This document shows positions 775 through 15,641 of a DNA stretch of 64,000 nucleotides, in pieces. Under the pieces are notes generated by a model. The model had not been told where the DNA came from, did no database searches, and was given only the letters and a program-made list of their open reading frames with translations. Source of the DNA: Agromyces soli. Lineage in GTDB: Bacteria > Actinomycetota > Actinomycetes > Actinomycetales > Microbacteriaceae. The stretch lies in the NCBI RefSeq assembly GCF_022811605.1, contig NZ_CP094533.1, forward strand, positions 1,302,001 to 1,366,000. The letters run 5' to 3'. A program made the translations under genes and the position numbers. How positions within the stretch are numbered: the stretch's first letter is position 1; each line of letters starts with the position of its first letter.

Positions 775-789
775 TGGATCCAGTATCCG
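775..789. promoter_or_regulatory. Candidate GntR operator, site 1
   Basis: TGGATCCAGTATCCG matches TGGATAC-N-GTATCCA at 12 of 15 positions. It lies about 90 bp upstream of the LLM-cofC-fgd operon, in the 183-bp gap after the GntR gene. Confidence 0.55.
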
Positions 790-877
790 AAAGACTGTTC
801 CCGCGGGAGGTGGACCCGCCTCGCGAGTTCGCTCGCGTGACGCCGGTACGACGACGCGTCAGGATGGAGGGGTGTCA

Positions 878-1870
878 GTGCACATCGGTTACGCCGCCAT
901 GCTCGAGCAGTTCCCTCCGTCCGACGCGGTCGCCTTCGCCGCTGCGGCGGAACGTCACGGCTTCAGCGGCACCATGGCCACCGATCCGTTCCAGCCGTGG
1001 TTGCCGCGTCTCGGCCAGGCCTCGCACGTGTGGAGCGTGCTGGGTGCGGTCGGCGCGGCAACCCGGGGCGACCTCGGGCCCGGCGTCACCACGCCCACGT
1101 TCCGCATGCACCCCGCGGTCGTCGCCCAGGCGAGCGCCACGCTCGCCTCGATGTACCCGGGCCGGCACTGGCTCGGCATCGGCTCCGGCGAGGCGATCAA
1201 CGAGCACGTCGTCGGCGCGTACTGGCCCGAGCCGCCCGACCGCATCGCCCGCATGTTCGAGGCCGTCGAGCTCATCAAGAAGCTCTTCGCCGGCTCGATC
1301 GCCGGGCGCGACGTGCGCCACGCCGGCCCCAGCTTCAAGATGGAGTCCACCCGGTTGTGGACCATGCCGAAGACGGCCCCCGAGATCTACATCGCGACCG
1401 CCGGCCCCGTCACCGCGCGGCGGGCCGGCCGGGTCGCCGACGGCCTGATCACGCAGAGCGGGCCGTCGGAGCGCCTCGAGGTGCTGCTCGCGCGCTTCGC
1501 CGACGGCGCCCGCGACGGCGGTCGCGACGCCGCCACGATGCCCCGCGTGCTGCAACTGCACCTCTCCTGGGCCGAGACCGACGAGGAGGCGATGCGCAAC
1601 GCGCTCGCCGAGTGGCCCATCGCCGGCATGCGCTTCGGCCGCGGCGACATCCGCTCGCCGTTCGAGCTCGAGCAGCTCGCCCGCACCGTGCGGCCGGAGG
1701 ACTTCGCGGGCCGCATGGTCGTCTCGGCCGACCCCGATCAGCACCGCGCCGAGATCCAGCGCCACCTCGACCTCGGCTTCGACCGCATCTACCTGCACAA
1801 CGTCGGCCGCAACCAGCTCGAGTGGCTCGAGGTCTTCGGCCGCGAGGTCCTGCCGGGGCTGCGGCCATGA
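878..1870 (+). CDS. LLM-class (F420-dependent) oxidoreductase, G6PDH-like family
   Basis: Luciferase-like monooxygenase TIM barrel of about 330 residues, closely related in layout to F420-dependent glucose-6-phosphate dehydrogenase (TIGR03557-like). The FGD active-site motif S-D-H-F-Q-P-W reads T-D-P-F-Q-P-W here: the catalytic His is Pro while Asp and Trp stay, and the GSGEAxNE motif is kept. It is therefore probably an F420-dependent alcohol/hydride-transfer enzyme or flavin enzyme rather than a sugar-phosphate dehydrogenase. An AGGATGGAGG stretch (861-870) fits GTG 878 (7-nt spacing) better than GTG 872 (1 nt). Its stop overlaps the cofC ATG by ATGA, so the two are translationally coupled. 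Substrate unknown. Confidence 0.85.
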   Translation: MHIGYAAMLEQFPPSDAVAFAAAAERHGFSGTMATDPFQPWLPRLGQASHVWSVLGAVGAATRGDLGPGVTTPTFRMHPAVVAQASATLASMYPGRHWLGIGSGEAINEHVVGAYWPEPPDRIARMFEAVELIKKLFAGSIAGRDVRHAGPSFKMESTRLWTMPKTAPEIYIATAGPVTARRAGRVADGLITQSGPSERLEVLLARFADGARDGGRDAATMPRVLQLHLSWAETDEEAMRNALAEWPIAGMRFGRGDIRSPFELEQLARTVRPEDFAGRMVVSADPDQHRAEIQRHLDLGFDRIYLHNVGRNQLEWLEVFGREVLPGLRP

Positions 1871-2598
1871 GCGGCGGCGACTGGGTGGTCGTCATCCCGG
1901 TGAAGCTCTTCGCCGCGGCGAAGTCGCGGCTGCGCCCGCAGCTCGGCGACGAGCAGCGCGCGGCGCTCGCCCGCGCCTTCGCGCTCGACACGGTGGATGC
2001 CGTGCGCAGCGCCGAGCGCGTCGCGGAGGTCGTCGTGGTCACCGCCGAGCCCGAACTCGGCGCGGAGCTCGCCGCGCTCCCCGACGTCGAGCTCGTGCCC
2101 GAGGCGGGCGAGCCCGGCCTCACCGCGGCGATCGAGCTCGGCATCGCGCACGTCCGGCACGGCGGCGGGCGGCATCTCGCGGTGCTGCTCGGCGACCTGC
2201 CGGCGCTCCGCTCCGCCGCGCTCGACGGGGCGCTCGAGGCCGCGTGCGGCCACCGGCTCGCCTTCGTCGCCGACCTCGAGGGCACCGGCACGACGCTCGT
2301 CACCGCGCTCGCCGGCACGGGCCTCGAGCCCGGCTTCGGGCCCGACTCCGCCGCCGCCCACCGGGCCGCCGGCTTCGCCGACCTCGCCGCCATCGGCAGC
2401 ATCGACCCCGGCCTCCGCCGCGACGTCGACACCGTCGAAGCGCTGGAGGCCGCGCTCGGCCTCGGCGTCGGCCCGCGCACGGCCGAGGTCGTCGCCGCCT
2501 TCGCCGACGAGGCGCTGCCGCACGCGCCGGCCGAGGCATCCGATCCGGCCGCCGCATCCGGTTCGGAAGCCCAGGCGGCCCCCGCACGTTCTCAGTGA
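1867..2598 (+). CDS. cofC: Phospholactate/PEP guanylyltransferase CofC (FbiD)
   Basis: 243-residue nucleotidyltransferase of F420 biosynthesis. It activates 2-phospho-L-lactate (or phosphoenolpyruvate in actinobacteria) with GTP, and CofD/FbiA then transfers the product to the deazaflavin Fo. The N-terminal VVVIPVKLFAAAKSRL and internal LLGDLPAL segments are typical of the family. The C-terminal tail after about residue 215 is Ala/Pro-rich and not expected to fold with the domain. The ATG overlaps the stop of the preceding LLM gene and fgd follows 30 bp later, giving an operon of cofactor user, maker and reducer. Confidence 0.9.
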   Translation: MSGGDWVVVIPVKLFAAAKSRLRPQLGDEQRAALARAFALDTVDAVRSAERVAEVVVVTAEPELGAELAALPDVELVPEAGEPGLTAAIELGIAHVRHGGGRHLAVLLGDLPALRSAALDGALEAACGHRLAFVADLEGTGTTLVTALAGTGLEPGFGPDSAAAHRAAGFADLAAIGSIDPGLRRDVDTVEALEAALGLGVGPRTAEVVAAFADEALPHAPAEASDPAAASGSEAQAAPARSQ

Positions 2599-2628
2599 TC
2601 AGCAGTTCCCAGCAGAAGGAGACCAATC

Positions 2629-3657
2629 GTGACCCTCACCCTCGGGTACAAGGCCAGCGCCGAGCAGTTCGACCCGCGCGAGCTCGTCGAGATCGCCGTC
2701 GCCGCCGAAGGCCACGGCATGGAGTCGGTGTTCGCGAGCGACCACTTCCAGCCGTGGCGGCACACGGGCGGCCACGCGCCGTTCTCGCTCGCCTGGATGG
2801 CCGCCGTCGGCGAGCGCACCAGCTCGGTGAAGATCGGCACGAGCGTGATGACGCCGACGTTCCGCTACAACCCGGCGGTCCTCGCGCAGGCCTTCGCCTC
2901 ACTCGGCCTGCTCTACCCCGACCGCATCATCGCCGGCTTCGGCTCCGGCGAGGCGCTGAACGAGATCGCCACCGGGTTCCGCGGCGCGGGCGAGCAGGAC
3001 TGGCCCGAGTTCCGGGAGCGCTACGCCCGGCTCCGCGAGTCCGTGCGCCTCATGCGCGCGCTCTGGAACGAGGAGGGGCAGGTCAACTTCGAGGGCGAGT
3101 ACTACTCGACCCACGACGCCTCGATCTACGACCGCCCCGAGACCGCCGTGCCGATCTACATCGCCGCGGGCGGCCCGCAGGTCGCGAAGTACGCCGGCCG
3201 CGCCGGCGACGGCTTCATCTGCACCTCGGGCAAGGGCGCCGAGCTCTACGCCGACCAGCTCATGCCCGCCGTGAAGGAGGGCCTCGCCGCCCGCGACGAC
3301 GGCCGTACCTTCGACGAGTACGACCGGATGATCGAGATCAAGCTCTCCTACGAGGAGACCGAGGAGGCCGCCCTCGAGAACACCCGGTTCTGGTCGCCGC
3401 TCTCGCTCTCGAAGGAGCAGAAGCACGACATCACCGACCCGGTCGAGATGGAGCGGGCCGCCGACGCGCTGCCGATCGAGCAGATCGCGAAGCGCTGGAT
3501 CGTCGGCACCGACCCCGACGCCGTCGTCGAGCAGATCGGCCAGTACATCGACTGGGGCTTCAACCACCTCGTGTTCCACGCGCCGGGGCACGACCAGCGC
3601 CGCTTCCTCGAGCTCTTCGAGCGCGACCTGGCGCCGCGGCTCCGCGCCCGCGGCTGA
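2629..3657 (+). CDS. fgd: F420-dependent glucose-6-phosphate dehydrogenase
   Basis: 342-residue LLM-family TIM barrel that oxidises glucose 6-phosphate to 6-phosphogluconolactone and reduces F420 to F420H2, the main source of reduced F420 in actinobacteria. The opening GYKASAEQF, the active-site S-D-H-F-Q-P-W (Asp38, His39, Trp43) and the GSGEALNE Glu108 correspond with a one-residue offset to Asp39/His40/Trp44/Glu109 of the Mycobacterium tuberculosis enzyme. The long identical-looking stretches [21 protein letters not shown] and [19 protein letters not shown] support orthology. Start GTG 2629 has AAGGAG at 2616-2621. It closes the LLM-cofC-fgd operon and should supply F420H2 to the LLM enzymes around it. 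Confidence 0.95.
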
Positions 3658-3751: not shown

Positions 3752-4225
3752 TCAGTGCAGGCCGGGGCGGTTCACGCTCGGCGGGATCGCGCAGTAATCG
3801 TAGAAGTACCGGCTCGGTGCGCCCTCGTCGGAGAGGTCGACGATGACGTTCGCGCCGGTGTGCGGCAGTTCGTCGCCCGCGAGTGTCCAGGCGGAGAAGT
3901 GCCAGATGCCGCGTACCGCGTCGTCGAGGAGGCCCTGGCCGTCGACCACGAGCACGGCATCGGGCCCGGGCGGCGTCGCGGTGCCGACCGGCTCGCCCGC
4001 GCGGAACGGCTCGACCGTGCCGCTGCGGAGCTCCGCCTCGGTCACGGCGCCGAGCGAGCGGCGCACGACGTCGTCGCCGGATGCCGCGGCGATCGCCTGC
4101 GCCAGGGCGTCCGCGAAGCGGGCGGCACGCCCGGCCTCCGCCCCGTCCACCGCGACGAGGCGTCGCCCGCGATTCGCATTGTGCAGGAACTCGGCGGCGA
4201 TGCCGTCGACGACCGATTCGCTCAC
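3752..4225 (-). CDS. Uridine-kinase-like protein with degenerate P-loop
   Basis: 157-residue protein with the outline of small actinobacterial uridine kinase-like P-loop proteins: an N-terminal RGRRLVAVDGAEAGRAARFAD where a Walker A (GxxGxGKT) is expected, a middle VVDGQGLL strand, and a C-terminal SRYFYDYCAIPPSVNRP end. The Walker A Lys and Ser/Thr are missing (Gly-Arg-Ala-Ala instead), so ATP binding in the normal way is unlikely. The GTG start lies 6 nt after TAGCCT, so the mRNA is probably leaderless. That box overlaps the stop of the ABC ATPase gene. Function not recognised. Confidence 0.6.
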   Translation of the reverse strand: MSESVVDGIAAEFLHNANRGRRLVAVDGAEAGRAARFADALAQAIAAASGDDVVRRSLGAVTEAELRSGTVEPFRAGEPVGTATPPGPDAVLVVDGQGLLDDAVRGIWHFSAWTLAGDELPHTGANVIVDLSDEGAPSRYFYDYCAIPPSVNRPGLH

Positions 4226-4231: not shown

Positions 4232-4237
4232 AGGCTA
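4232..4237 (-). promoter_or_regulatory. -10 box, leaderless start of the 3752-4225 gene
   Basis: TAGCCT on the minus strand, 6 nt before the GTG at 4225. Its TAG is also the stop codon of the upstream ABC ATPase gene. Confidence 0.5.
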
Positions 4238-5071
4238 CGCGCTCGGGGTGCTGCCGGTGCCGGCCGGGACCGCGTCGGGGGTCGCCGCCTCCGCGGCCGC
4301 CCCGCCCGCGACCGCGACGAGCGGCCGACCGGTGATCGGGTGGTCGATGATCTCGGCGCGGACGCCGTAGACCTCGTGCACGAGCCGGGCCGTCAGGACC
4401 TCGCGTGGCGGGCCGGCGGCGATGACGCGCCCCTCGGCCAGCACGAGCACATGGTCGGCGTAGGCCGCCGCCTGGCTGAGATCGTGCAGCGCCGCGACGA
4501 CGGTGAGGCCGCCCCGGGCGAGGCCCGCGAGCAGTTCCAGCGCGACGAGCTGGGCCGAGAGGTCGAGGTGGTTCGTCGGCTCGTCGGCGAGCAGCAGCTC
4601 GGGCTCCTGGGCGAGGGCTCGGGCGAGCGTGATGCGCTGGCGCTCGCCGCCCGAGAGCTGCCCGATCTGGCGTTCGGCGAGGTGCCCGGCGCCGCTCGCG
4701 GCCAGGGCGTGCGCGACGAGGGCGTGGTCGCGCGGTCCGGCGGGGGCGAAGGCGCCGAGGTGCGGCGTGCGGCCGAGCAGCACGGCCGCCGCGACGGTGA
4801 GCTGCGGGTCGAGCTCGGCCTGCTGCTCGGCGAGGGCGACGAGCCGGGCGCGGTCGCGGCGGCGCATCCGGCCGAGTTCCCGGCCGTCGAGGGCGAGCTC
4901 GCCCCCGTCGGTGCGCTCGATCGCGGCGATGAGGTGCAGCAGCGTCGACTTGCCGGCGCCGTTCGGGCCGATGAGCGCGGTGAGTGCGCCGCCCGGCAGT
5001 GTCGCGTCGACGCCGTCGATGATGGTGCGGCCGCCGCGGGCGAAGCGCACCCGCTCGAGATCCAGGGTCAT
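4235..5071 (-). CDS. ABC importer ATP-binding protein, putative F420-0 / FecCD-family system
   Basis: 278-residue ATPase of the iron-siderophore/B12 (FecE/BtuD) class. Walker A GPNGAGKST is at residues 35-43, signature LSGGERQR, Walker B ELLLADEPTNHLD and the H-loop in VVAALHDLSQA. It energises uptake through the permease encoded directly upstream; its ATG overlaps the permease stop (ATGA). The three-gene cassette, in an actinobacterium and beside F420 genes, fits the TIGR03873/03869/03868 set proposed to import F420-0. Siderophore or corrinoid uptake remains possible. The C-terminal 30 residues are Ala/Pro-rich and probably unstructured. Confidence 0.85.
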   Translation of the reverse strand: MTLDLERVRFARGGRTIIDGVDATLPGGALTALIGPNGAGKSTLLHLIAAIERTDGGELALDGRELGRMRRRDRARLVALAEQQAELDPQLTVAAAVLLGRTPHLGAFAPAGPRDHALVAHALAASGAGHLAERQIGQLSGGERQRITLARALAQEPELLLADEPTNHLDLSAQLVALELLAGLARGGLTVVAALHDLSQAAAYADHVLVLAEGRVIAAGPPREVLTARLVHEVYGVRAEIIDHPITGRPLVAVAGGAAAEAATPDAVPAGTGSTPSA

Positions 5072-6189
5072 GCGTTCCTCCTCGAGCGGAGCAGCAGCCA
5101 TGCGAAGACCGGGCCGCCGATGAGGGCCGTCAGGATGCCGACCGGCAGCTCGCGCGGATCGAACAGGGTGCGCGCCCCGGTGTCGGCCCAGACCAGGAAG
5201 ATCGCGCCCGCGATCGCGGAGAGCGGCAGCAGCGCGCGGTGGCCGGGGCCGATGACGAGCCGCACCGCGTGCGGCAGCACGAGCCCGACGAAGCCGATCG
5301 AGCCGCTCACCGCGACGAGCGCGCCGGTGAGCAGCGCGGTGCCGCCGAGCAGCAGCGCCCGGCTGCGGGCGACGTGCACGCCGAGCGCCGCGGCGCCGGA
5401 CTCGCCGACGGCGAAGGCGTCGAGGGTGCGGGCGCTCGCGATGAGCGGCGCACCGACGACGAGCAGCGCGCCGCCCGCGATCGTCACGGAGGTCCAATCG
5501 GTTCCCGACAGCGAGCCGAGCAGCCAGTTGAGGATCTCGCGGTAGCTGTCGTTCGTCGCGCTCCAGAAGATGACGAGGCTCGTGATGGCCCCGAACACGC
5601 TCGTGACGGCGACGCCGGCGAGCACGGTCGTCGTCGGGGCGAGCCGGCCGCCGCGACCGGCCGCGAGGGCGAGGCCGAGCGTCGCGACGAGCGCCAGCAC
5701 GGCGCCGCCGAAGGCCGCGAGCGGCAGCAGCAGTCCCCAGCCGAGCACGAGCACGACGACGGCGCCGACGGAGGCGCCGGAGGAGAGCCCGAGCAGGTAG
5801 GGGTCGGCGAGGGGGTTCCGGGTGATGGCCTGCATCACCGCGCCGCACAGGGCGAGGCCCGCGCCGACGGCGGCGGCGGTCAGCACCCGCGGCATCCGCA
5901 GCTGCCAGACGATGCCGTCGCGCAGCGGCGACAGCGTCGGCTCGCCGAAGCCGAGGTGCGCGGCGAGGCTCGCGAGCACCTCGCCGGGGGAGAGTTCGGC
6001 CGGGCCGAGCGTGACGGCGACGACGAGGGATGCGGCGAGCAGCACGAGCCCGACGAGGCCCGCCGCGAGGGCGCGACCGCCGCCGCGCCGGCCCGAGGCG
6101 CCCGCGTCGCTCGGAGCGGTGCGCGCCGCGTCGACCCCGGCCGGGCCCGTGGCCCGCACCGTCGTCTCCGTCCGCCCGGCCGCGCGCAT
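5068..6189 (-). CDS. ABC importer permease, FecCD family, putative F420-0 transporter
   Basis: 373-residue integral membrane protein of the FecCD/BtuC family with about ten transmembrane helices. Family motifs include RMPRVLTAAAVGAGLALCGAVMQ, NPLADPYLLGLSSGASVGA and a C-terminal GFVGLVLPHAVRLVIGPGHR, which forms the coupling helices that touch the ATPase. About 45 N-terminal residues are Arg/Ala/Gly-rich before the first helix. It overlaps the upstream binding-protein gene by one base (TGATG) and the ATPase gene by four. Confidence 0.88.
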   Translation of the reverse strand: MRAAGRTETTVRATGPAGVDAARTAPSDAGASGRRGGGRALAAGLVGLVLLAASLVVAVTLGPAELSPGEVLASLAAHLGFGEPTLSPLRDGIVWQLRMPRVLTAAAVGAGLALCGAVMQAITRNPLADPYLLGLSSGASVGAVVVLVLGWGLLLPLAAFGGAVLALVATLGLALAAGRGGRLAPTTTVLAGVAVTSVFGAITSLVIFWSATNDSYREILNWLLGSLSGTDWTSVTIAGGALLVVGAPLIASARTLDAFAVGESGAAALGVHVARSRALLLGGTALLTGALVAVSGSIGFVGLVLPHAVRLVIGPGHRALLPLSAIAGAIFLVWADTGARTLFDPRELPVGILTALIGGPVFAWLLLRSRRNA

Positions 6190-7244
6190 CAGCCCTCCAG
6201 CGCCCCGAGCTGCTCGACGAGCGACTCGACGGCGGAGACGTTGCGCACGCCCGCCTCGGTCGCGGGGAAGTCGACGACGAGGAAGCGCTGCTGCGCGACC
6301 GCCGGGAGGGCCGCGGTCACCGGGTTCTGCTGCAGCAGCTCGATCTTCGAGGCGGCGGTGTTCCATGGCGCGTCGACGAGCACGATCACGTCGGGCTCGG
6401 CGTCGACGACGGCCTCCCAGCTCATCGAGGTCCACGTGTCGTGCACCTCGGCGGCGACGTTCTCGAGGCCGGCGGCGTCCATGATCATCTGCGGCGCGCC
6501 GATGCCCGCCCCGACGAAGGGGGTGTCGGTGCCGGAGCTGTACCAGAGCGCGGTCAGCCCGTCGGCGTTCGGCTCGACGGCGTCGAGCGCGGCGCGCTGC
6601 TCGGCGACGAGTTCGGCCGCGGCATCCGGCACGTCGAAGATCGCGCCGAGTTCCTCGAACTCGCGGAAGACCTCGTCGAAGGTCAGCGGGTCGGGCATGT
6701 AGCCGGCGCCCTTGCAGGCGGCCGGGGCGACGTAGCTCGCGACGCCGAGCGCGGCGAGCTGCGAGCGCTCGCCGGCGCCCTCGGCGGAGAGGTTCGACTC
6801 CCAGCCGGCGTAGACGAGGTCGGGTTCGAGCTCGAGGGTGGCCTCCTGCGAGGGCACCTTGTCGGTGACGGCCGGCACGCCGACGAGGGCGTCGGCGTAC
6901 TCGTCGGGCACCGGCCCGTCGCTGAACGCCGTGCCGACGACGCGGTCGCCGAGCCCGAGGGCGAGCATGAGCTCGACGGTGGAGGACTTGATCGTGACGA
7001 CGCGCTCCGGCGCGGCGTCGAAGGTGACCTCGGTGCCGCAGTTGTCGAGCGTGAGCGGGTAGCCGCTCGCGGCGGGGGCGGATGCCTCGGGCCGCTCGGC
7101 CGCAGCGGGCGCGGCGCAGCCGGCGAGCGCGGCGGTCGCGGCGACGGCGAGGCCGAGCGCGGTGGCGACGAGCGCGGGGCCGCGGAGGCGGGCGCTGCGG
7201 GCCGAGCGGCGGGGGCGGATGGGACGGGTGGGACTGGGGGTCAT
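6189..7244 (-). CDS. ABC importer substrate-binding lipoprotein, putative F420-0 transporter
   Basis: 351-residue TroA/FhuD-like binding lipoprotein. A signal sequence ends in lipobox L-A-G-C with Cys43 as the predicted lipidated residue; the mature protein has the two-lobe domain (PERVVTIKSSTVELMLALGLGDRVVG through PDVIVLVDAPWN). ATG 7244 is chosen because AGGAG lies 6 nt upstream; longer in-frame starts would destroy the signal peptide. It is first in the SBP-permease-ATPase operon. Its promoter region contains operator site 2 (7387-7401), shared with the divergent hydrolase operon. Ligand not determinable; F420-0 is suggested by family and by cofC/fgd next door. Confidence 0.85.
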   Translation of the reverse strand: MTPSPTRPIRPRRSARSARLRGPALVATALGLAVAATAALAGCAAPAAAERPEASAPAASGYPLTLDNCGTEVTFDAAPERVVTIKSSTVELMLALGLGDRVVGTAFSDGPVPDEYADALVGVPAVTDKVPSQEATLELEPDLVYAGWESNLSAEGAGERSQLAALGVASYVAPAACKGAGYMPDPLTFDEVFREFEELGAIFDVPDAAAELVAEQRAALDAVEPNADGLTALWYSSGTDTPFVGAGIGAPQMIMDAAGLENVAAEVHDTWTSMSWEAVVDAEPDVIVLVDAPWNTAASKIELLQQNPVTAALPAVAQQRFLVVDFPATEAGVRNVSAVESLVEQLGALEG

Positions 7245-7386
7245 GCGGGACTCCTGGGCAGGGGCGAGCGATGGGGAATCCGACGAGGTCGGCGACTCGC
7301 GGCCCAATCCCGGACCACTGACACCGGGCAATCCCGCCCGGCCGTCGCAGAAGAGCCTAGCTCCGAGAGCGATCTCGGATCAATAC

Positions 7387-7401
7387 TGGATTCTGGATCC
7401 A
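7387..7401. promoter_or_regulatory. Candidate GntR operator, site 2
   Basis: TGGATTCTGGATCCA matches the palindrome TGGATAC-N-GTATCCA with one mismatch per half-site. It sits in the 280-bp divergent promoter region between the F420-0-type importer operon and the hydrolase-amidohydrolase-LLM-ABC operon. Confidence 0.55.
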
Positions 7402-7523: not shown

Positions 7524-8474
7524 ATGAGAAGCACAGGCGTCGAGTTCTACAGCGAGGGCGATCGCATCGCCGCCATCTGGCGCACGCCCGAGACGCCGGG
7601 CCCGTACCGGGCCATCGTGCAGGGTCCGGGCTGGCTCGGCCTCAAGGACGCGAAGCTCTACGTGCGCTACCACGAGGCGCTCGTCGCGGCCGGCTTCGCC
7701 GTGCTCGTCTTCGACTACCGCGGCTTCGGCGACTCCGAGGGCGACCGGGGCATCCTCTCGCCCGCGCGCCAGCTGCAGGACCTCGTGAACGCCGTCAGCT
7801 ACCTCACCACCCGCGACGACGTCGTCGCCGACGCCATCGGCGTCTTCGGCACCGGCGGCACCGGCGGCGGCAACGCCGTGCTGCTCGCCGACGTCGACCC
7901 CCGCGTCAAGGCGGCCGTGAGCCAGGTGCCCGTCGCCGACGGCACCGACTGGCTGCACCGCATGCGCGAGGAGCACGCCTGGCTCGCCTTCCTCGCGAGC
8001 CTCGAGGAGGACCGCCGGCTCCGCGTCGCCAGCGGCCAGGGCCGGCTCGTGCACCCCCGCGAGGAGATCATGGTGCCGACCCCCGAGCGCCGCGCCACGA
8101 ACATCAAGGCCGACGTGGACGACCGCATCCCCAGCGCCATCCCGCTGTCCTGCGCCGAGGAGATCCTCGCCTACCGCCCCATCGACGCCGCGAACCGCCT
8201 GCGCACCCCGCTCCTCGTGATCGGCGTCGAGGGCGACGCGACCACCCCCACCGACCACGCCGAGGCGCTCTACGCCGCGGCCAAGGGGCCGAAGCAGCTG
8301 ATCATGCAGCGGCACACCACCCACTACGCGGCCTACGACCGCTACTGGGAGCAGACCACCCCGCTCATCGTCGACTGGCTCGACCGCTACGTGCGGCCGA
8401 GCGACGTCGTCGTGCGCACCACCACCTCGCCCGAGCAGGGCGAGGCCATCGAGCTCATGGAGGCACCGAAGTGA
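7524..8474 (+). CDS. Alpha/beta-hydrolase fold protein lacking the usual nucleophile Ser
   Basis: 316-residue hydrolase of the dienelactone-hydrolase/X-Pro-peptidase-like type. The strand-3/oxyanion region VLVFDYRGFGDSEGD is intact, as are a candidate acid in VEGDATTPTDH and a candidate His in TTHYAAYDRYW. The nucleophile elbow, normally G-x-S-x-S/G-G-G, reads G-T-G-G-T-G-G-G (residues 109-116), so the Ser/Cys is absent; Thr110 or Thr113 are the only hydroxyls nearby. It may use another mechanism, act as a lyase/hydratase-like member, or bind only. GGGAGG at 7512-7517 supports ATG 7524. It is first gene of a long operon running to 13809 (GTGA overlap with the next gene). Confidence 0.75.
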   Translation: MRSTGVEFYSEGDRIAAIWRTPETPGPYRAIVQGPGWLGLKDAKLYVRYHEALVAAGFAVLVFDYRGFGDSEGDRGILSPARQLQDLVNAVSYLTTRDDVVADAIGVFGTGGTGGGNAVLLADVDPRVKAAVSQVPVADGTDWLHRMREEHAWLAFLASLEEDRRLRVASGQGRLVHPREEIMVPTPERRATNIKADVDDRIPSAIPLSCAEEILAYRPIDAANRLRTPLLVIGVEGDATTPTDHAEALYAAAKGPKQLIMQRHTTHYAAYDRYWEQTTPLIVDWLDRYVRPSDVVVRTTTSPEQGEAIELMEAPK

Positions 8475-9901
8475 CCATCGACCTCAGAATCGCCGGCGGC
8501 ACCGTCGTCACCCCCGCCGGCCCCGAGCGGGCCGACGTGCTCGTGCACGACGGCCGCATCGCCGGCCTCGTCGGCCCCGACGTCGCGATCGACGCCGCGC
8601 GCACCGTCGACGCCACCGGGCGCCTCGTGCTCCCCGGCATGGTCGACGTGCACGTGCACACCCGAGAGCCCGGCTACGAGCACAAGGACGACATCCTCAC
8701 CACGACCCGCCAGGCCGCGGCCGGCGGCGTCACCACCATCTTCGGCATGCCGAACCTGAAGCCGCCGACCGTCGACGTCGAGACCCTCACCGACGTGTTC
8801 GAGCGCTACGCCTCGAGCTCGATCGTCGACTGGAACCACAACCCGGCGCCGACGAAGTTCGACGAGATCGAGCCGATGGCCGAGATGGGCATCAACGCCT
8901 TCAAGATCTACATGGTCGTCGACACGGGGCGCACCTACCCGCACCCGGCCGGCACCGGCATCCACGACCACGGCCACCTGCTGCAGATCATGGACCGCAT
9001 CGCGAAGACCGGCAAGCGCTTCATCGTGCACCCGCACGACCAGGCGCTCATGGACTACATCGAGGGCGAGGTGCTCGCCCGCGGCGAGAACACGCCGCAG
9101 GGCTACGCCTCCGCGTACGCCGCCCGCGAGGGCGTCATCTGGGACACGGCGATCGACGTCGTGCTGCGGCTCGCCGAGGCATCCGGATGCCCCGTGCACA
9201 TCGCGCACATCCAGACCCGCCGCTCGATCGAGGCGGTGCGCCGCGCGAAGGCCGCCGGCATCGACGTCACCTGCGAGGTGAACCACTGGGCGCCGTTCCT
9301 CTCCACATGGAACGACGTCGAGACCCTCGGCCCGTACGCCCTCTCCTACTGGGTGCCCGACGACAACCGGGCCGCCATCTGGGAGGGCATGCGCGACGGC
9401 ACCATCGACATCGCGAGCTCCGACCACGCGCCGCACACGCGCGAGGAGAAGGAGATCGGCTGGACCGAGATGTGGAGCGCGCACACCGGCACGCCCGGCA
9501 TCCAGTACTACTACGAGCTCATGCTCGACGCCGTGAACCGCGGCGAGCTGACCCTCGAGCGGGCCGTCGACATGGTCGCGACCATCCCCGCCGACAAGTT
9601 CGGCCTCGCCGGCGTCAAGGGCACCATCCAGGTCGGCGCCGACGCCGACCTCGTCATCGCCGACCCGGCCCACGAGTGGACGATCACGAACGACGACGTG
9701 CTCTCGAAGATCGGCTGGACCCCGTACGACGGGCGCACCATCAGCGCCCGCATCGAGCGCACCCTCGTGCGCGGCCAGGACGTGTACGCCGACGGCGAGG
9801 TCGTCGGCGCCCCCGGTCACGGAAAGCTCGCGGCCGCCCCGGCCGCAGCACATGCGGCACGCGCCGCCGAACCCGCGCTCGCCGCGAATGAAGGGAACTG
9901 A
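8471..9901 (+). CDS. Dihydroorotase/allantoinase/dihydropyrimidinase-like cyclic amidohydrolase
   Basis: 476-residue metal-dependent amidohydrolase that should open a cyclic amide/imide ring. Metal ligands are visible: HVHTREP (His-x-His), the Lys in NAFKIYMV expected to be carbamylated, His in FIVHPHDQ, His in VHIAHIQT and Asp in SSDHAPHT. The loops around the active site differ from the true dihydropyrimidinase at 22718, so substrates probably differ. It starts by GTGA overlap within the hydrolase stop and is followed after 3 bp by an LLM enzyme. The last 25 residues are an Ala-rich tail. De novo pyrimidine synthesis (pyrC) is unlikely because neighbours are catabolic and a transporter. Confidence 0.85.
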   Translation: MTIDLRIAGGTVVTPAGPERADVLVHDGRIAGLVGPDVAIDAARTVDATGRLVLPGMVDVHVHTREPGYEHKDDILTTTRQAAAGGVTTIFGMPNLKPPTVDVETLTDVFERYASSSIVDWNHNPAPTKFDEIEPMAEMGINAFKIYMVVDTGRTYPHPAGTGIHDHGHLLQIMDRIAKTGKRFIVHPHDQALMDYIEGEVLARGENTPQGYASAYAAREGVIWDTAIDVVLRLAEASGCPVHIAHIQTRRSIEAVRRAKAAGIDVTCEVNHWAPFLSTWNDVETLGPYALSYWVPDDNRAAIWEGMRDGTIDIASSDHAPHTREEKEIGWTEMWSAHTGTPGIQYYYELMLDAVNRGELTLERAVDMVATIPADKFGLAGVKGTIQVGADADLVIADPAHEWTITNDDVLSKIGWTPYDGRTISARIERTLVRGQDVYADGEVVGAPGHGKLAAAPAAAHAARAAEPALAANEGN

Positions 9902-9904: not shown

Positions 9905-10879
9905 ATGAAATTCGGACTGCTGCTGCCGCACTTCGGCGAAGAGGCGAGCAAGGAGAAGCTGCTCGAGGGCTCGAAGCGCGCCGAGGAGCTCGGCTTCGAC
10001 TCCGTCTGGGTGCGCGACCACCTGGTGTTCGAGCCGCACGGCGAGATGGAGAAGCCGAACCGCACCTTCTACGACGCGCTCACGACGCTCACCGCGATCG
10101 GCGCCGTCACCGAGAAGCTCGAGCTCGGCACGGGCTCGCTCATCCCGTTCCGCCACCCGCTCGTCACCGCCCTCATGGCCGGCACGATGACCCAGCTGCT
10201 CGGGCCGCGCCTCATCCTCGGCTTCGGCGCCGGCACCTTCGACCACGAGTTCGAGGCGATCGGCTGGGGCGACCTCAACCGCGTCGACATGGTGCGCTCG
10301 AACGCCGAGATCCTGAAGCGGGTCTTCACCGAGAACGACGTCACCTACGACGACGGCATCTTCTCCTTCGAGAACGTCACGATCGAGCCGAAGCCCGTCG
10401 GCGGGAGCGTGCCGTTCTGGTACTGCGGCGCGACGCCGCGCTCGGCGCGCCTCGCGGCCGAGTACGCCGACGGCTGGATGCCGGGCCGCATCTCGCTCGC
10501 GTCGATGGCCAAGCGCATCGACGTCATGAAGGAGATGACGGACGCCTCGGGCCGCCCGATGCCGACCGTCGCCGTCATCCCGCCGACCTCGATCGAGGAG
10601 ACCCGCGAGGAGGCGCTCAAGCACGTGAACGTGCCCGGCCTGCTCGCCTGGGCCAACAAGGCCAAGTTCGCCGTGAAGCCGCCGTCGGGTAGCTTCGAGA
10701 CCGTCGAGGACCTGGAAGGCCAGCTCATCGTCGGCAACCCCGATGAAGCGGTCGCCGAGCTCAAGAAGTTCGAGGCGACGGGCGTCGAGCACGTCGTGTT
10801 CGACTTCCGGTTCAAGTTCGACAAGTTCTTCGACCAGATCGAGCTGCTCGGCAGCGAGGTGCTGCCGAAGATGCGCTGA
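9905..10879 (+). CDS. LLM-class flavin/F420-dependent oxidoreductase or monooxygenase
   Basis: 324-residue luciferase-like TIM barrel. The start KFGLLLPHFGEEASKEKLLEGSKRAEELGFDSVWVRDHL and the segment LGTGSLIPFRHP are family typical. Charged insertions near the C terminus (DFRFKFDKFFDQIELLG) may shape the substrate pocket. Members use either FMN with O2 or F420; the class alone does not tell which. It is encoded 3 bp after the cyclic amidohydrolase and just before the ABC importer, so it likely acts on the imported ring compound or its opened product. Confidence 0.85.
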   Translation: MKFGLLLPHFGEEASKEKLLEGSKRAEELGFDSVWVRDHLVFEPHGEMEKPNRTFYDALTTLTAIGAVTEKLELGTGSLIPFRHPLVTALMAGTMTQLLGPRLILGFGAGTFDHEFEAIGWGDLNRVDMVRSNAEILKRVFTENDVTYDDGIFSFENVTIEPKPVGGSVPFWYCGATPRSARLAAEYADGWMPGRISLASMAKRIDVMKEMTDASGRPMPTVAVIPPTSIEETREEALKHVNVPGLLAWANKAKFAVKPPSGSFETVEDLEGQLIVGNPDEAVAELKKFEATGVEHVVFDFRFKFDKFFDQIELLGSEVLPKMR

Positions 10880-10917
10880 CGCGGCAGCTCCGCCGCGCCC
10901 CCGAAATGGAGAATGAG

Positions 10918-11745
10918 ATGACGACGACGTCAATCGAACGGAACGAGGCGGGTGCGCCGCTGATCTCGGTGCGCGACCTGTCGGTGAGCTACGACGTAGC
11001 GCGAACGGGCAAGCGGCTGACGGCCATCGAGGGCGTGGACCTCGACGTGCACGAGGGTGAGTTCATCACCGTGCTCGGGCCGTCGGGGTGCGGCAAGACG
11101 ACGTTCATGAACGTCGTCGCGGGACTGGTGAAGCCGACGACGGGCACGGTGCTCGTCGGCGGCTCGCCGGTCACCGGGCCCGGGCCGGACCGCGCGGTCG
11201 TGTTCCAGGACTACGCGCTGCTGCCGTGGCGCACGGTCTTCGACAATGTGAAGTTCGGCCTCGAGATGCAGAAGGAGCTGAAGGGCGCCGGCTGGCGGGA
11301 GCGCGTGCAGGACGCGATCGAGCTCGTCGGGCTCGCCGGCTTCGAGCAGTCCTACCCGCGGGAGCTCTCCGGCGGCATGCAGCAGCGCGTGGGCCTCGCC
11401 CGCGCGGTCGTGGCGGAGCCGCGCATCCTGCTGATGGACGAGCCGCTCGGCGCCGTCGACGCCCTCACCCGCGAGGTGATGCGCGACGAGATCGAGAAGC
11501 TCATGGCGGCCACCGGCAAGACGGTGCTGTTCATCACGCACTCCATCGAGGAGGCCATCCTGCTCGGCGACCGGATCGTGGTGTTCAAGAGCCACCCCGG
11601 TGCCATCAAGGAGATCATCGAGACCGGGCTCGAGCGCCCGCGCTCCGAGCGCAGCATCCAGCACGATCCGCGCTTCCTCGAGCTGCGCGACCACCTCTGG
11701 GACGCCCTGCAGGGCGAGGCCACGGCGGCGGCGGTCTCGAAATGA
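10918..11745 (+). CDS. ABC importer ATP-binding protein, nitrate/sulfonate/taurine type
   Basis: 275-residue ATPase of the NrtD/SsuB/TauB class: Walker A GPSGCGKTT, Q-loop VVFQDYALLPWRTVFDN, signature LSGGMQQRVGLARA, Walker B RILLMDEPLGAVD, H-loop FITHSIEEA. ATG 10918 has GGAG at 10908-10911 six nt upstream and is preferred over ATG 10906. It energises the two permeases that follow; the first overlaps by ATGA. The substrate-binding protein is encoded separately at 14285-15361 on the other strand. Confidence 0.92.
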   Translation: MTTTSIERNEAGAPLISVRDLSVSYDVARTGKRLTAIEGVDLDVHEGEFITVLGPSGCGKTTFMNVVAGLVKPTTGTVLVGGSPVTGPGPDRAVVFQDYALLPWRTVFDNVKFGLEMQKELKGAGWRERVQDAIELVGLAGFEQSYPRELSGGMQQRVGLARAVVAEPRILLMDEPLGAVDALTREVMRDEIEKLMAATGKTVLFITHSIEEAILLGDRIVVFKSHPGAIKEIIETGLERPRSERSIQHDPRFLELRDHLWDALQGEATAAAVSK

Positions 11746-12575
11746 GCGCCTTCCTCGCCGCCGGGCCGAACCTCGGCCGGGGCGGCATCGGCGCCTGGCT
11801 CGCCGGACTCAGTCCGGCGGGCAAGGCGGGCGTGCTCGCGATCGAGGTCGTGGTCATGCTCGTCGTGTGGCAGCTCGTCGTCGGGGTGTTCGGCTGGATC
11901 AACCCCGTGTTCCTGCCGCCGCCCACCGCCATCGCGCAGGGCTTCGTCGAGCTCGTCTCGGGCGGGATGCTGTGGCCGAACATGCTGATCTCGGCGCAGG
12001 CATGGCTCATCGGCTTCGCGATCGCCGCGGTGATCGCCATCCCGGTCGGCCTGCTGATGGGCAGCTCGCTGCCCATGGACCGGGTCGTCGGGCCGATCGC
12101 GTGGACGATCTACGCGACGCCGACGATCGCGTACCAGCCGCTCGCGAAGGCGTGGTTCGGCTTCGGGATCGGGCCGGTGATCTTCCTGGTCGCCGTCAGT
12201 GCGCTGTTCCCGATCCTGCTGAACGTGGCGGCGGGCATGCGCACCACGAACGCCTCGATCATCCGCGCGGGCAAGGTGTACGGCGCGAGCCGCACGCAGC
12301 TGTACCGCTCGGTGTACCTGCCGTCGACGGTGCCGTTCCTCTTCGCCGGGCTCCGGCAGGCGGTCGTGCTCGCGACGATCGGCATGGTCGTCGCCGAGCT
12401 CGCCGGTTCGGCCTCGGGCATGGGCGCGCTCATCATCAAGGCGGCCAACACGTACCAGACCGACCAGGCGTTCGCCGCGATCGCGATCGTGGTGGCGTGG
12501 AGCGTCGGGATGACCCAGGTGGTGACCCTCGTCGAACGATGGGTCGCCCCGTGGACGAGGAAGGGCCGGCGATGA
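11742..12575 (+). CDS. ABC importer permease 1, SsuC/NrtB type
   Basis: 277-residue membrane permease with about six helices. The FLPPPTAIAQGF motif follows the first helix, and the EAA-like coupling loop is in AGKVYGASRTQLYRSVYLPSTVPFLFAGLRQA. It partners with permease 2 (12572-13411); two different permease subunits make a heterodimer, as in pyrimidine-precursor and aromatic-acid importers. It overlaps both neighbours by 4 bp. Confidence 0.9.
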   Translation: MSAFLAAGPNLGRGGIGAWLAGLSPAGKAGVLAIEVVVMLVVWQLVVGVFGWINPVFLPPPTAIAQGFVELVSGGMLWPNMLISAQAWLIGFAIAAVIAIPVGLLMGSSLPMDRVVGPIAWTIYATPTIAYQPLAKAWFGFGIGPVIFLVAVSALFPILLNVAAGMRTTNASIIRAGKVYGASRTQLYRSVYLPSTVPFLFAGLRQAVVLATIGMVVAELAGSASGMGALIIKAANTYQTDQAFAAIAIVVAWSVGMTQVVTLVERWVAPWTRKGRR

Positions 12576-13411
12576 CCGTCACCAGTGCGACCGGCACGAT
12601 GCGCATCGTGCGCCCCCGGCGGGTGATCCGACGGAGCGAGGCCAAGTGGACCTGGCTGCTCGTCGGCGTCATCGCCGCCATCCTGCTGATCTGGGAGGCC
12701 GCGGTCAGCTGGCTGCAGCTCATCCCGGCGTCGTTCCTGCCGCCGCCCACGGCCATCGCGGTGTCGTTCGGCAAGCTGCTCGTCGACCCGGAGTTCTGGG
12801 GCGCGTTCGGCTACAGCCTCGGCAACGTCGCGATCGGCCTCGTCATCGCCGTCGTGGTCGGCGTCACCGTCGGCCTCGCGGTCGGCTGGTCGCCGGTGCT
12901 GCGCTTCACCGTCGCGCCGTTCCTCTGGCTCCTGTACTCGACGCCGAAGGTGGCGCTCGCGCCGCTGTTCATCCTCGGCCTCGGGCTCGGCAGCGAGTCG
13001 AAGATCGCGTTGGTGTTCCTGCTCGCGGTGTTCCCGATCATCCTGAACACGATGGAGGGCGCCGTCACGGTCAGCACTTCGCTCGTGAACGCGGGGCGGG
13101 TGTACGGCGTCAACGGCGTCGCCCTCGGCTGGAAGATCATCGTCCCGGCGACGCTGCCGTACAGCCTGTCGGGCATCCAGCGCGGTGCCGCGCTGGGGTT
13201 CACCGGCGAGGTGCTCGGCGAGTTCCTCGGCGGCACGGGCGGGCTCGGGCACATGCTCGAGTACGCCGCCTACCAGTTCCAGATGGATGACGCGATCGCC
13301 ATGGTCATCGTGATGGTGATCATCGCGAACCTGACGCTGCTGCTCATCTCCACCCTGCGGCGCCGCCTGGCGCCGTGGTACGACGACCGGAAGATCGCGG
13401 GGGCCTCCTGA
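12572..13411 (+). CDS. ABC importer permease 2, SsuC/NrtB type
   Basis: 279-residue permease homologous to the preceding one, again with the PASFLPPPTAIAVSF element and the EAA-like loop AGRVYGVNGVALGWKIIVPATLPYSLSGI. Six helices are predicted, with a basic N-terminal tail of about 25 residues facing the cytoplasm. The start overlaps the previous stop by ATGA; the stop overlaps the ridA-like start by TGATG. Confidence 0.9.
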   Translation: MTVTSATGTMRIVRPRRVIRRSEAKWTWLLVGVIAAILLIWEAAVSWLQLIPASFLPPPTAIAVSFGKLLVDPEFWGAFGYSLGNVAIGLVIAVVVGVTVGLAVGWSPVLRFTVAPFLWLLYSTPKVALAPLFILGLGLGSESKIALVFLLAVFPIILNTMEGAVTVSTSLVNAGRVYGVNGVALGWKIIVPATLPYSLSGIQRGAALGFTGEVLGEFLGGTGGLGHMLEYAAYQFQMDDAIAMVIVMVIIANLTLLLISTLRRRLAPWYDDRKIAGAS

Positions 13412-13809
13412 TGCACAAGCAGATCGTCATCCCCGAGGGCGTGTACCCGCCCACGGCGGACTTCAGCCAGGCGATCCGGGTCTCCGGCGGCGACCTGGTG
13501 TTCCTCAGCGGGATCATCGGCATGCGGCCGGACGGCACGATGCCCGCCGAGCCCGCGGCGCAGATCGAGCTCGCCTTCGAGAACCTCGTGAAGGTGCTCG
13601 AGGCGGCCGGGGCGACGGCGGCGGATGTCGTGAAGGTGAACGTGTTCGTGCGGGACGACTTCCAGCTCGTGCGCGACGAGCTGCGGGCCATCCGCGCCCG
13701 GTACTTCACGCACGACTTCCCGGTGTCGACGCTGATCCAGGTCGCCGGCTTCGCCGGGCCGGACTACCGCTTCGAGATCGAGGCGATCGCGGCGGTGCCC
13801 TCGGGCTGA
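13411..13809 (+). CDS. RidA/YjgF/RutC-family protein without the conserved Arg
   Basis: 132-residue trimeric-barrel family protein. Family hallmarks GDLVFLSGIIG, Q-x-x-x-A-F-E-N-L and the C-terminal FEIEAIA are present. The catalytic Arg of imine deaminases (PARxxVEV in RidA) is replaced: FPVSTLIQV has Ser106 there. So it probably does not hydrolyse 2-iminoacids; a RutC-like or chaperone/ligand-binding role is more likely. It is last in the hydrolase-amidohydrolase-LLM-ABC operon, which together with the LLM and hydrolase gives a Rut-pathway-like gene set. Confidence 0.85.
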   Translation: MHKQIVIPEGVYPPTADFSQAIRVSGGDLVFLSGIIGMRPDGTMPAEPAAQIELAFENLVKVLEAAGATAADVVKVNVFVRDDFQLVRDELRAIRARYFTHDFPVSTLIQVAGFAGPDYRFEIEAIAAVPSG

Positions 13810-13940: not shown

Positions 13941-14002
13941 GGCAAGACGGCACGATTTGCGGGTGGCGGCGCCCGCGCACCCGCGAATAGTGCCGTCTTG
14001 CC
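13941..14002. repeat. 62-nt palindromic repeat (PAL62), copy 1
   Basis: Arms GGCAAGACGGCACGATTTGC and the matching right arm ending GTGCCGTCTTGCC pair over about 24 bp (two mismatches) around a GC-rich loop. It is the same length and layout as copies at 14110, 28301 and 48066. It lies in a 476-bp gap without genes. Confidence 0.8.
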
Positions 14003-14109
14003 GGCACGAGGTCGGCCGCGATCGGGGAGGGGATGCCGCGTCCGTCGCGCGCCTGCGCCACTGCGAGGCATCCACCGCCGCCGGACGCGGCCCCTCCCCG
14101 CCTCCGCCA

Positions 14110-14171
14110 GGCAAGACGTCACTATCGGTGGGTGGCGGCGCCCGCGCACCCGCGAATAGTGCCGTCTTGCC
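14110..14171. repeat. 62-nt palindromic repeat (PAL62), copy 2
   Basis: Direct-orientation partner of copy 1, 169 bp apart start to start. Left arm GGCAAGACGTCACTATCGGT, right arm ending GTGCCGTCTTGCC; the loop GGCGGCGCCCGCGC is identical to copy 1. Confidence 0.8.
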
Positions 14172-14227
14172 GGGTAGGGGGCGGGGGATGCCGGGCGGGC
14201 GGGCCGGGGCCCGCCGCCGGACACGAC

Positions 14228-14263
14228 GGAGCCCCCGCCGTCATGCGCTGCGGCGGGGGCTCC
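14228..14263 (-). terminator. Hairpin terminator of the substrate-binding protein gene
   Basis: A perfect 13-bp stem (GGAGCCCCCGCCG at 14228-14240 and complement at 14251-14263) with a 10-nt loop, 21 bp beyond the stop of the minus-strand SBP gene. Confidence 0.6.
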
Positions 14264-14284
14264 GAGGATCGGGATGGAACCCGA

Positions 14285-15361
14285 TCAGGGGTACGGCAGG
14301 GTGGCCGGCGGGTCGTTCTCGACGCCGACGAGCTCCTGGGCCTTCTCGAGGTACGCGAGCTGCCCCGCGTCGAACTCGAGCGGCTCGAGCGACTGCGTCT
14401 CGATCGTGGTGTCCCACGCGTCCTGGTCGAAGTACAGGTTCGAGCAGGCGAGGTGCCCGTCGAGCACCCACACGCTGTCCGAGCCTCGGAGCGCCGAGAC
14501 GTCGAAGTCGTTCGCCTCGTAGATGTCGAGGATCTCGTCGACGTTCTCAGGGAACTCGCCCGGCGCCGGGGCGGTCATGAAGTCCGCCGCCTTCAGCGTC
14601 GCGCGGAGGAACCGCACGAGCGTGTTCGGGTTCTTCTGCGCCCAGTCGGTGCCGGCGACCTGCACGTCGTTCGCCCAGTTGCGCAGCGCCTCGACGATGA
14701 TGTTCGCCCCGTGCTCCTCGAGCGCGGGGCGGTCATCGGTGTAGAAGGGCTGCAGGCTGATGCGGTCGTTGATGAAGAACTCGGTCCAGGACTCCGAGCC
14801 GGGGCCGGGGTACACGACCTCGACGTTCACGGTGTCGAGGTCCCAGCCCTCTTCCTTCAGCACCAGCTTGCGCTGGAACTCGGCCGGGTCGCCGGGGGTG
14901 CCGGCGAGCGTGACCGTCGTGCCGTCGAGGTCCTCGACCGACTCGATGCCCTTCTGCACCGCGAAGTCGAAGTTCTGCCGGCAGTAATGCCCGCCGACGA
15001 GGTCGATCGGGACGCCGCCCCGGATCGCCTCGATGACGGTGCCGGTCGACTCGACGCCGATGTCGGCGCTGCCCGACGCGACGGCCGCGGTGACGTTGTC
15101 GGCGGTGATGACCTCGACGGTGAGGCCCTCCTCCTCGTAGTAGCCGAGGTCCGTGCCGAGCACGTACATCGAGTACATGGTGATGTCGGGGAAGGGGATG
15201 GCGACCGTGATGTCGGTGTCCTCGGCGGGGCCGGGCTCGCCGTCGCCGAGGTCGACCGGGCCGGACGGCGCCGGTGCGGCGGAGCTGCAACCGACGAGCA
15301 GCGCCAGTGCTGCGATGCCGGCTGCAGCCGCCAGGCTGCTGCGGGGGATGGATTTGCGCAT
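14285..15361 (-). CDS. ABC importer substrate-binding lipoprotein, NMT1/THI5/SsuA-like
   Basis: 358-residue binding lipoprotein; the signal peptide ends in L-V-G-C with Cys25 as predicted lipid anchor. The mature domain has the NMT1/THI5-like start ITVAIPFPDITMYSMYVLGTDLGYYEEEGL and the GSADIGVESTGTVIEAIRGG hinge, typical of binders of pyrimidine precursors, sulfonates, nitrate and aromatic acids. It should deliver to the permeases at 11742-13411, although it is transcribed separately and convergently with them. Two Cys (YCRQ and LACSN) could form a disulfide. Start ATG 15361 is preferred because the signal peptide follows at once. Operator site 3 lies about 70 bp upstream. Confidence 0.88.
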   Translation of the reverse strand: MRKSIPRSSLAAAAGIAALALLVGCSSAAPAPSGPVDLGDGEPGPAEDTDITVAIPFPDITMYSMYVLGTDLGYYEEEGLTVEVITADNVTAAVASGSADIGVESTGTVIEAIRGGVPIDLVGGHYCRQNFDFAVQKGIESVEDLDGTTVTLAGTPGDPAEFQRKLVLKEEGWDLDTVNVEVVYPGPGSESWTEFFINDRISLQPFYTDDRPALEEHGANIIVEALRNWANDVQVAGTDWAQKNPNTLVRFLRATLKAADFMTAPAPGEFPENVDEILDIYEANDFDVSALRGSDSVWVLDGHLACSNLYFDQDAWDTTIETQSLEPLEFDAGQLAYLEKAQELVGVENDPPATLPYP

Positions 15362-15429
15362 GACTCTCCATTCTTGGCGGGATAGACCCTCGCGGTCGGA
15401 TCCCGCGGGAACGGCACCGTCCGCGAGTA

Positions 15430-15444
15430 TGGATACGGTATCCA
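15430..15444. promoter_or_regulatory. Candidate GntR operator, site 3 (perfect palindrome)
   Basis: TGGATACGGTATCCA, a perfect 7-1-7 palindrome, upstream of the minus-strand SBP gene. Confidence 0.7.
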
Positions 15445-15626
15445 ATCTGCGTCAGGCTGTCCATGCCTTCTTTCCGGAGGGCGAGTGGTTGCATTCTCGG
15501 GGCGAGTGGTCTCGCGGGCGGCCGGGCGATCGCGCGCAGCCGGATCTCGGTGGGATGCTCGGAGTGGACCGCGGATGCCTCGTGACGCGTCCGGCCACCC
15601 GATCCACTGGACGCGGATTGCAATTT

Positions 15627-15641
15627 TGGATACCGTATCCA
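15627..15641. promoter_or_regulatory. Candidate GntR operator, site 4 (perfect palindrome)
   Basis: TGGATACCGTATCCA, a perfect 7-1-7 palindrome ending 23 bp before the GTG of the zinc alcohol dehydrogenase gene. It is preceded by TTT as in site 1. Its position suggests it blocks the promoter or transcription start. Confidence 0.72.

Follow-up and report, generated by a model that had tools for sequence, protein, structure and literature searches.

Catabolic regulons under GntR/FCD repressors are known from the FadR, LldR and VanR type, and organisms that use F420 are usually taken to make it themselves. NpdR, the regulator of the npd cluster, is of the IclR type. Selengut and Haft are said to have proposed an ATP-binding cassette (ABC) transporter cassette for F420-0 (TIGR03868). 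PMC8498797 describes F420H2-dependent luciferase-like reductases in the npd cluster for picrate and 2,4-dinitrophenol (Rhodococcus, Nocardioides), and states that every producer studied so far synthesises FO with CofG/CofH or FbiC. Here we analyse a 64,000-nucleotide stretch of Agromyces soli (contig NZ_CP094533.1, positions 1,302,001 to 1,366,000; hereafter the window), in which F420 genes and a catabolic island share a palindrome and a GntR/FCD gene lies at the island edge. We consider it very probable, from comparisons of sequence, that a local GntR repressor couples F420 import, completion and reduction to a catabolic pathway in Agromyces and relatives.

In the mechanism that we propose, the GntR/FCD repressor would bind TGGATNC-N-GNATCCA operators at five transcription units of the island and at one distant unit. 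The island units would be llm1-cofC-fgd, the F420-0/FO importer, abh-hyd-llm3-ABC-rid, an ABC binding protein and adh-coaT-amid2-ligB-ligA; the distant one encodes a predicted exported metallo-β-lactamase (MBL)-fold hydrolase at genome position 215.9 kb. The pathway substrate or an intermediate would release the repressor, and the cell would then import the substrate together with a deazaflavin, which it would complete to F420. This would be reduced by Fgd (perhaps also by the luciferase-like LLM1), and LLM3 would consume the F420H2, alongside hydrolysis of a ring by a hydantoinase-like enzyme. The regulator and its putative operators in the window are:

1..689, plus strand: GntR/FCD regulator, the proposed repressor; the open frame (L225 1878-2690) extends about 124 bases upstream of the window, and the conserved part begins at 66
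775..789, no strand assigned: operator O1, TGGATCCAGTATCCG, two mismatches, in the putative -35/-10 spacer of the llm1-cofC-fgd promoter
7387..7401, no strand assigned: operator O2, TGGATTCTGGATCCA, two mismatches, in the gap from which the importer and abh genes diverge
15430..15444, no strand assigned: operator O3, TGGATACGGTATCCA, perfect, over the putative -10 of the gene for the binding protein
15627..15641, no strand assigned: operator O4, TGGATACCGTATCCA, perfect, before the adh operon

The initial annotation had claimed two perfect and two degenerate copies of the palindrome, each in a promoter gap, with no other copy in the window, and this description held throughout. All four copies are in place, the one at 7387 lies between a divergent pair (the F420-0-type importer and the hydrolase-hydantoinase-LLM-ABC operon), and at ≤3 mismatches the window contains these four matches only. 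In 100 dinucleotide shuffles the mean number of such matches was 0.36 and the maximum 3, so that 0/100 reached 4. Nor is the motif scattered over the genome, the outcome that would have spoken against a regulon: in the genome that contains the window (G000; 3,810,275 bases, one contig), TGGATACNGTATCCA at ≤2 mismatches occurs in five places, four of them in the window, compared to one for the reversed-pattern control. A looser pattern at ≤2 mismatches gave 50 places in the whole of G000 against 20 for the control, and at 0–1 mismatch it gave the same five sites and one GC-type look-alike. Such look-alikes, TGGATGC-N-GCATCC(A/G), were rejected as operators, as they occur both with and without GntR in Agromyces genomes among the matches listed. 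On the shuffles, the genome counts and the island-bound exact matches in nine other genomes (below), we rejected the view that the motif arises by chance or is scattered over the genome.

The fifth genomic site (G000:C1:215871; L003, L229) lies immediately 5′ of the gene for the predicted exported MBL-fold hydrolase, whose start looks twin-arginine-like by eye. The G029 orthologue is 79% identical and is likewise preceded by a site; the sites at these genes fall within mechanical open frames, 5′ of the aligned starts. The proposed regulon therefore keeps the four promoter gaps originally assigned to it and gains a member elsewhere in the genome that had not been part of the claim.

The regulator scored above the Pfam cut-offs for both domains that define GntR/FCD factors (GntR, 65.5 bits against 27; FCD, 69.4 bits against 24.3), which bears out its original identification. 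It is present in 23/60 Agromyces genomes, and the hyd gene in 24/60, namely the same 23 and G074, with a 55% relative. We mapped 40 loci in addition to the window: 36 were from Agromyces (17 with GntR, 19 without) and five GntR-negative ones from other families. The map takes in 36/37 Agromyces genomes, that of the window included (G027 was left out), while the other 23 of the 60 are unmapped. An operator (≤1 mismatch) precedes llm1 in 17/17 GntR-positive Agromyces loci. In the GntR-negative loci none was found there even at ≤2 mismatches (0/19 in Agromyces, 0/24 with the other families). Among loci in which the importer's binding-protein gene was found, an operator precedes the importer in 14/15 GntR-positive loci compared to 0/16 GntR-negative Agromyces loci, and none precedes it in L082, from another family. 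The single exception, L058, arose because the stretch searched from the called start fell short of the site, which was located before abh. Most GntR-negative loci retain llm1-cofC-fgd and the importer. Two of them, L066 (beside L058, L062 and L064) and L076 (beside L065, L074 and L075), are close relatives of GntR-positive loci; both retain the importer leader as well as the sequence adjoining the start of llm1, and the operator, GntR and the island were not found in the locus. Sites with 1–2 mismatches precede gntR itself in 9/17 Agromyces loci.

The pattern extends beyond the genus. We examined 44 loci with hyd, of which 13 are titled Agromyces; the best hyd match, at 99%, is from A. mediolanus. 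The abh gene is present in 44/44 (62–99% identical), and llm3 in all except L191, which ends in hyd. In Microbacterium and the marine strain PHSC20C1 operators stand at the same promoters as in Agromyces, and in Leifsonia Root4 llm1-abh-hyd-llm3 forms a single run downstream of an operator. In nine non-Agromyces island genomes, 25/25 exact matches lay in the island or ≤ ~6 kb from it, with none for the reversed control. All 12 non-Agromyces genomes with the island that were tested had a GntR match; Amycolatopsis had two and the other 11 one each (in G087, GntR and hyd are on different contigs). A one-mismatch site precedes gntR in 3/3 Microbacterium regions. In L228, from Microbacterium maritypicum, another one-mismatch site precedes an ATP-binding gene (read from the sequence) and a binding-protein gene, and the corresponding region of both L226 and L227 likewise contains a one-mismatch site. 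A Frankiales metagenome-assembled genome (MAG) carries the variant TGAATACAGTATTCA just 5′ of abh. Thus, the operator is conserved with the regulator across species (Agromyces, Microbacterium and the marine relative) and is missing where GntR is missing, although within Agromyces this amounts to only three independent changes. The claim of a single putative GntR regulon marked by a shared palindrome is supported by this comparison.

Several further gene arrangements were seen in these islands. In the Frankiales MAG and in Amycolatopsis rubida a gntR relative is directly followed by an fgd-like gene (L178 17878-19610, L181 19859-21390), and a Frankiales locus has molybdopterin-dehydrogenase-type subunits near the abh/hyd/llm3 trio. 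In M. maritypicum (L228 2247-5082), kynureninase, Amidohydro_2 and 3-hydroxyanthranilate dioxygenase genes lie between gntR and the F420 operon, and the island also carries a LysR gene.

The F420 genes and the importer of the window comprise:

872..1870, plus strand: llm1, luciferase-like oxidoreductase of the F420/Fgd kind (TIGR03557, 258.9 bits, cut-off 210; TIGR03885, 295 bits, under its cut-off of 399)
1867..2598, plus strand: cofC, 2-phospholactate guanylyltransferase (TIGR03552, 149.4 bits, cut-off 105)
2629..3657, plus strand: fgd, F420-dependent glucose-6-phosphate dehydrogenase (TIGR03554, 602 bits, above the equivalog cut-off of 420)
3752..4225, minus strand: conserved 157-residue protein with no family match
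4235..5071, minus strand: ATPase of the F420-0/FO importer (ABC_tran, 110.8 bits)
5068..6189, minus strand: FecCD permease of the importer (FecCD, 289.7 bits)
6189..7244, minus strand: substrate-binding protein of the importer (TIGR03868, 497 bits, cut-off 392)
7248..7352, minus strand: candidate structured RNA leader of the importer mRNA, three hairpins (covariation; 80 bits against a model whose training set includes it)
20614..21645, minus strand: cofD (TIGR01819, 307 bits, cut-off 257), with no operator within 2 mismatches nearby

Fgd matched Mycobacterium FGD1 (3b4y) with an E-value of 1.2e-165. The nearest solved relative of LLM1 is 9hav, labelled just ‘Luciferase family protein’; that LLM1 is a second F420-reducing dehydrogenase is possible but a guess. 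The importer has all three genes of an F420-0 ABC transporter: a binding protein over the TIGR03868 cut-off, a FecCD permease and an ATPase. A cofE gene (230.9 bits, over the cut-off) neighbours gntR on its upstream side, beyond the window edge, so CofC, CofD and CofE are all over their cut-offs in G000. The CofH model had no match in G000 (the CofG model was not run), which leaves the biosynthetic set apparently incomplete. The same model, which scored >500 bits in three other genomes, found no match in 53/60 Agromyces and only 18–21-bit fragments in five (CofG was not searched), and an FbiC-like match under the cut-off was present in 2/60. G000 and most of the Agromyces searched thus appear to be deazaflavin auxotrophs. 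The initial annotation had F420 synthesis, reduction and uptake switched on together. This would hold for import, CofC and Fgd but not for full synthesis, because there is no CofH or FbiC match in G000 and the looser-pattern list includes no site for cofD or cofE.

What does the importer bring in? A cell with CofC and CofD but without FO synthase would need external FO, and this makes FO the more likely cargo in Agromyces. The presence of cofD in 35/37 Agromyces genomes tested (34 over the cut-off), of cofC within the operon, and of nothing more than a CofH fragment in 58/60 genomes all fit FO import. On the other hand, TIGR03868 is named for a putative F420-0 transporter, and PHSC20C1 has the importer without a cofD match, without a cofC match in the locus and with an FO-synthase match limited to a 20-bit fragment. 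That F420-0 is the cargo, in line with the family name of the importer, with CofC and CofD as remnants or otherwise used, is the strongest of the alternatives, though we hold it to be the less probable reading. The cargo may also differ between organisms, or be broad, given that the gene content of PHSC20C1 argues for F420-0.

The candidate leader, which would be a new cis-regulatory RNA, lies between the importer's putative -10 and its start and is kept with or without GntR. In an alignment of 38 sequences, 93.2% of cells were paired (83.5% in shuffles and 15.5–42.7% when slid), 71 cells had changed on both sides (20.4 in shuffles), and the covariation score was 0.395 (0.212 in shuffles), although kinship among the aligned sequences inflates such counts. 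The leader therefore covaries as a structured 5′ leader of the riboswitch kind would, with two of the counts at shuffle level: pairs with two-sided change (9 versus 7.9) and further pair types (26 versus 25.5). Six single sequences did not fold clearly better than shuffles (z from 0.09 to -2.04), and an Rfam search of the leader gave two matches only, far below the gathering scores, with no family above chance level. The 5′ arm of hairpin 2 (CCGGGA) is complementary to the ribosome site (UCCCGG) in many Agromyces; the window and Microbacterium leaders do not keep this complementarity exactly. The alignment (A3) left out L046 (the same stretch as the window), L055, L065, L074, L078 and L161, which the pattern had missed, and L077, L082 and L085, which were weak or gave none. 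The resulting model later matched L055, L065, L074, L077, L078 and L161 at E <1e-6 and L082 at the expected place (E 0.13); L085 gave no match. A match in L084 (E 0.0025) was rejected, as it reads by eye like RNase P RNA. It is a guess that the leader senses FO or F420; if it did, it would to our knowledge be the first F420-family riboswitch. A fuller scheme, in which deazaflavin auxotrophs import FO rather than F420-0, finish it with CofC, CofD and CofE, and gate its import both by GntR, opening it once a pathway calls for F420H2, and by a leader of this kind that closes it when the pool is full, is a tentative and rather doubtful proposal.

The catabolic genes are:

7524..8474, plus strand: abh, alpha/beta hydrolase, S15/S33-like (Peptidase_S15, 55 bits, cut-off 23)
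8471..9901, plus strand: hyd, cyclic amidohydrolase of the hydantoinase/allantoinase/dihydroorotase group, over no cut-off among the 25 families listed
9905..10879, plus strand: llm3, luciferase-like oxidoreductase (TIGR03619, 151 bits, under the cut-off of 166.9)
10906..11745, plus strand: ABC importer ATPase
11742-12575 and 12572-13411, plus strand: two ABC permeases, the second by BPD_transp_1 and the first by position only
13411..13809, plus strand: Rid/RutC-type protein, start inferred (Ribonuc_L-PSP, 83 bits; below the RutC cut-off)
14285..15361, minus strand: NMT1/THI5-like substrate-binding protein, sbp (PF09084, 77.9 bits)
15665..20088, plus strand: putative second catabolic operon, five genes, adh to ligA: zinc alcohol dehydrogenase adh (15665), CaiB-type CoA-transferase coaT (16769), Amidohydro_2 protein amid2 (17989), LigB (18899) and LigA-like (19741; 22.3 bits, under the cut-off of 25.3)

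LLM3 is 64–90% identical to its counterparts in 12 other loci and is probably an F420-dependent core enzyme of the pathway. None of the second operon's proteins reached an NCBIfam cut-off (LigA was not in that scan), and structure-database searches of hyd, llm3, ligB and amid2 gave no substrate. The combination of a hydantoinase-like enzyme, a Rid protein and LLM3 suggests that the substrate is perhaps a cyclic amide or N-heterocycle. In the elbow of Abh (GGTGG), Thr stands where serine hydrolases have Ser, in 60/60 rows, some of them from the same genomes. Beside cofD (20614-26703) lie genes for a CN-hydrolase, a dihydropyrimidinase (516 bits, over the cut-off; the query sequence probably starts too early), a TIGR03842 LLM enzyme (588 bits, over the cut-off) and a class III aminotransferase; together these have the look of a reductive pyrimidine pathway whose LLM enzyme is of the F420 type.

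Might GntR control llm1 as a pathway enzyme only, with cofC, fgd and the importer co-transcribed or divergent by an accident of insertion? The F420 operon does occur without GntR in other Agromyces, and in Leifsonia Root4 and a Blastococcus MAG llm1 stands directly before abh-hyd-llm3, with no cofC or fgd match in the loci. However, the importer promoter has a conserved site of its own, doubled in Microbacterium, and a second complete cofE, behind llm1, occurs in 12/23 GntR-positive genomes compared to 0/37 GntR-negative ones (seven placements were checked against llm1 coordinates and five were taken from the spacing to gntR; two GntR-negative genomes show extra cofE fragments). In G011, moreover, the mechanical frame of an FbiC-like gene contains a perfect operator, 69 bases upstream of where the match begins, so that the true FbiC-like start must be downstream of the operator. 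The gntR-fgd adjacency in Amycolatopsis and the Frankiales MAG also counts against such an accident, which we judge to be unlikely.

The positions of the operators relative to the promoters bear on the mode of action. In llm1 promoters TTGC or TTGACT is followed by the operator and then by an AAT-like hexamer, at a spacing of 17–18 bases, and the second Microbacterium importer site sits between TTGATT and TAGCAT/TACGAT, so that at both the operator fills the putative -35/-10 spacer. The sbp sites overlie TACCGT, the putative -10, 17 bases downstream of TGGACA/TAGACA. Some abh promoters have three half-sites repeated every 7 bases (GGATTC-T-GGATCC-A-GAATCC). As sites overlap or touch putative promoter elements, GntR is most likely a repressor, lifted by an inducer. 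The first importer site is differently placed: it ends 3 bases upstream of the putative -35 and, in Agromyces, could serve an activator, but with the spacer and -10 positions at the other promoters an activating GntR is improbable too. Weakest is the idea that another regulator binds the palindrome and gntR merely travels with the island: a MarR-like gene (named by eye from its translation) adjoins the fifth site in G000, and the M. maritypicum island has its LysR gene, but GntR accompanies the island in every non-Agromyces genome tested, the Microbacterium gntR promoters carry the site, and a Pfam scan of the window's island genes found no other regulator among those scanned, so we give this very little credence.

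Several observations count against repression of the whole set by the local GntR. The distribution of GntR on the llm1 tree can be explained by only three changes, and the 17 versus 19 loci therefore represent few events and not 36 independent observations. At ≤2 mismatches no site is found at the gntR promoter of G000, the looser-pattern list (≤2 mismatches) includes none for cofD or cofE in G000, and in G003 and Microbacterium 2FI (G091) the FbiC-like gene is without one. In each of three GntR-negative Agromyces (G004, G065, G069) exact A/T-type sites stand isolated elsewhere in the genome (at least four sites in all); the three inspected (L100, L104, L108) are near no island gene and no MBL gene. 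All -35 and -10 elements were assigned by eye from aligned sites, and their placement at the adh promoter is less clear. Finally, the Amycolatopsis, Sinosporangium and Rhizohabitans islands have a GntR relative (47–53%) but no recognisable site. In favour of GntR, its recognition region differs in accordance with operator presence, being RSALIQLE where the operator is present and RTALMQLE or similar in distant genera (RSAL to RTAL).

If local GntR repression does couple the two gene sets, the switch of one degradation pathway would sit at the F420 genes in a group in which CofH has no match, and a cofactor that is apparently not made from scratch would be gathered when the pathway needs F420H2. 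This makes F420/FO trade among soil bacteria, the importer's cargo and the matching of cofactor supply to a catabolic burst testable, and the small operator set offers a route to the pathway substrate via induction.

How does the locus compare with the known systems? A literature search for NpdR with F420 found nothing, and papers on F420 with GntR, regulons or catabolism included none pertinent by title. The Rut pyrimidine pathway (RutA/RutC) has an LLM enzyme, a Rid protein and a hydrolase in common with the island, but here the RutA and RutC cut-offs are not reached, and a hydantoinase-like enzyme and F420 genes are present. The F420-0 transporter cassette has the same binding protein over the cut-off, FecCD permease and ATPase; here they accompany cofC, cofD and cofE in a genome that lacks a CofH match, which suggests FO as the cargo, and they come with a putative GntR operator and the candidate RNA leader. 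Like npd with its NpdC, NpdI and NpdG enzymes, the island appears to place F420H2-using luciferase-like enzymes in a degradation pathway, but its regulator is GntR/FCD and not IclR-type, and the putative catabolic operator also stands at the genes for F420 uptake and CofC. The GntR/FCD catabolic regulons are similar in having a local FCD regulator with palindromic operators at its own pathway, and in Microbacterium a site at its own gene. In contrast to them, the operators here extend to genes that import, complete and reduce a redox cofactor.

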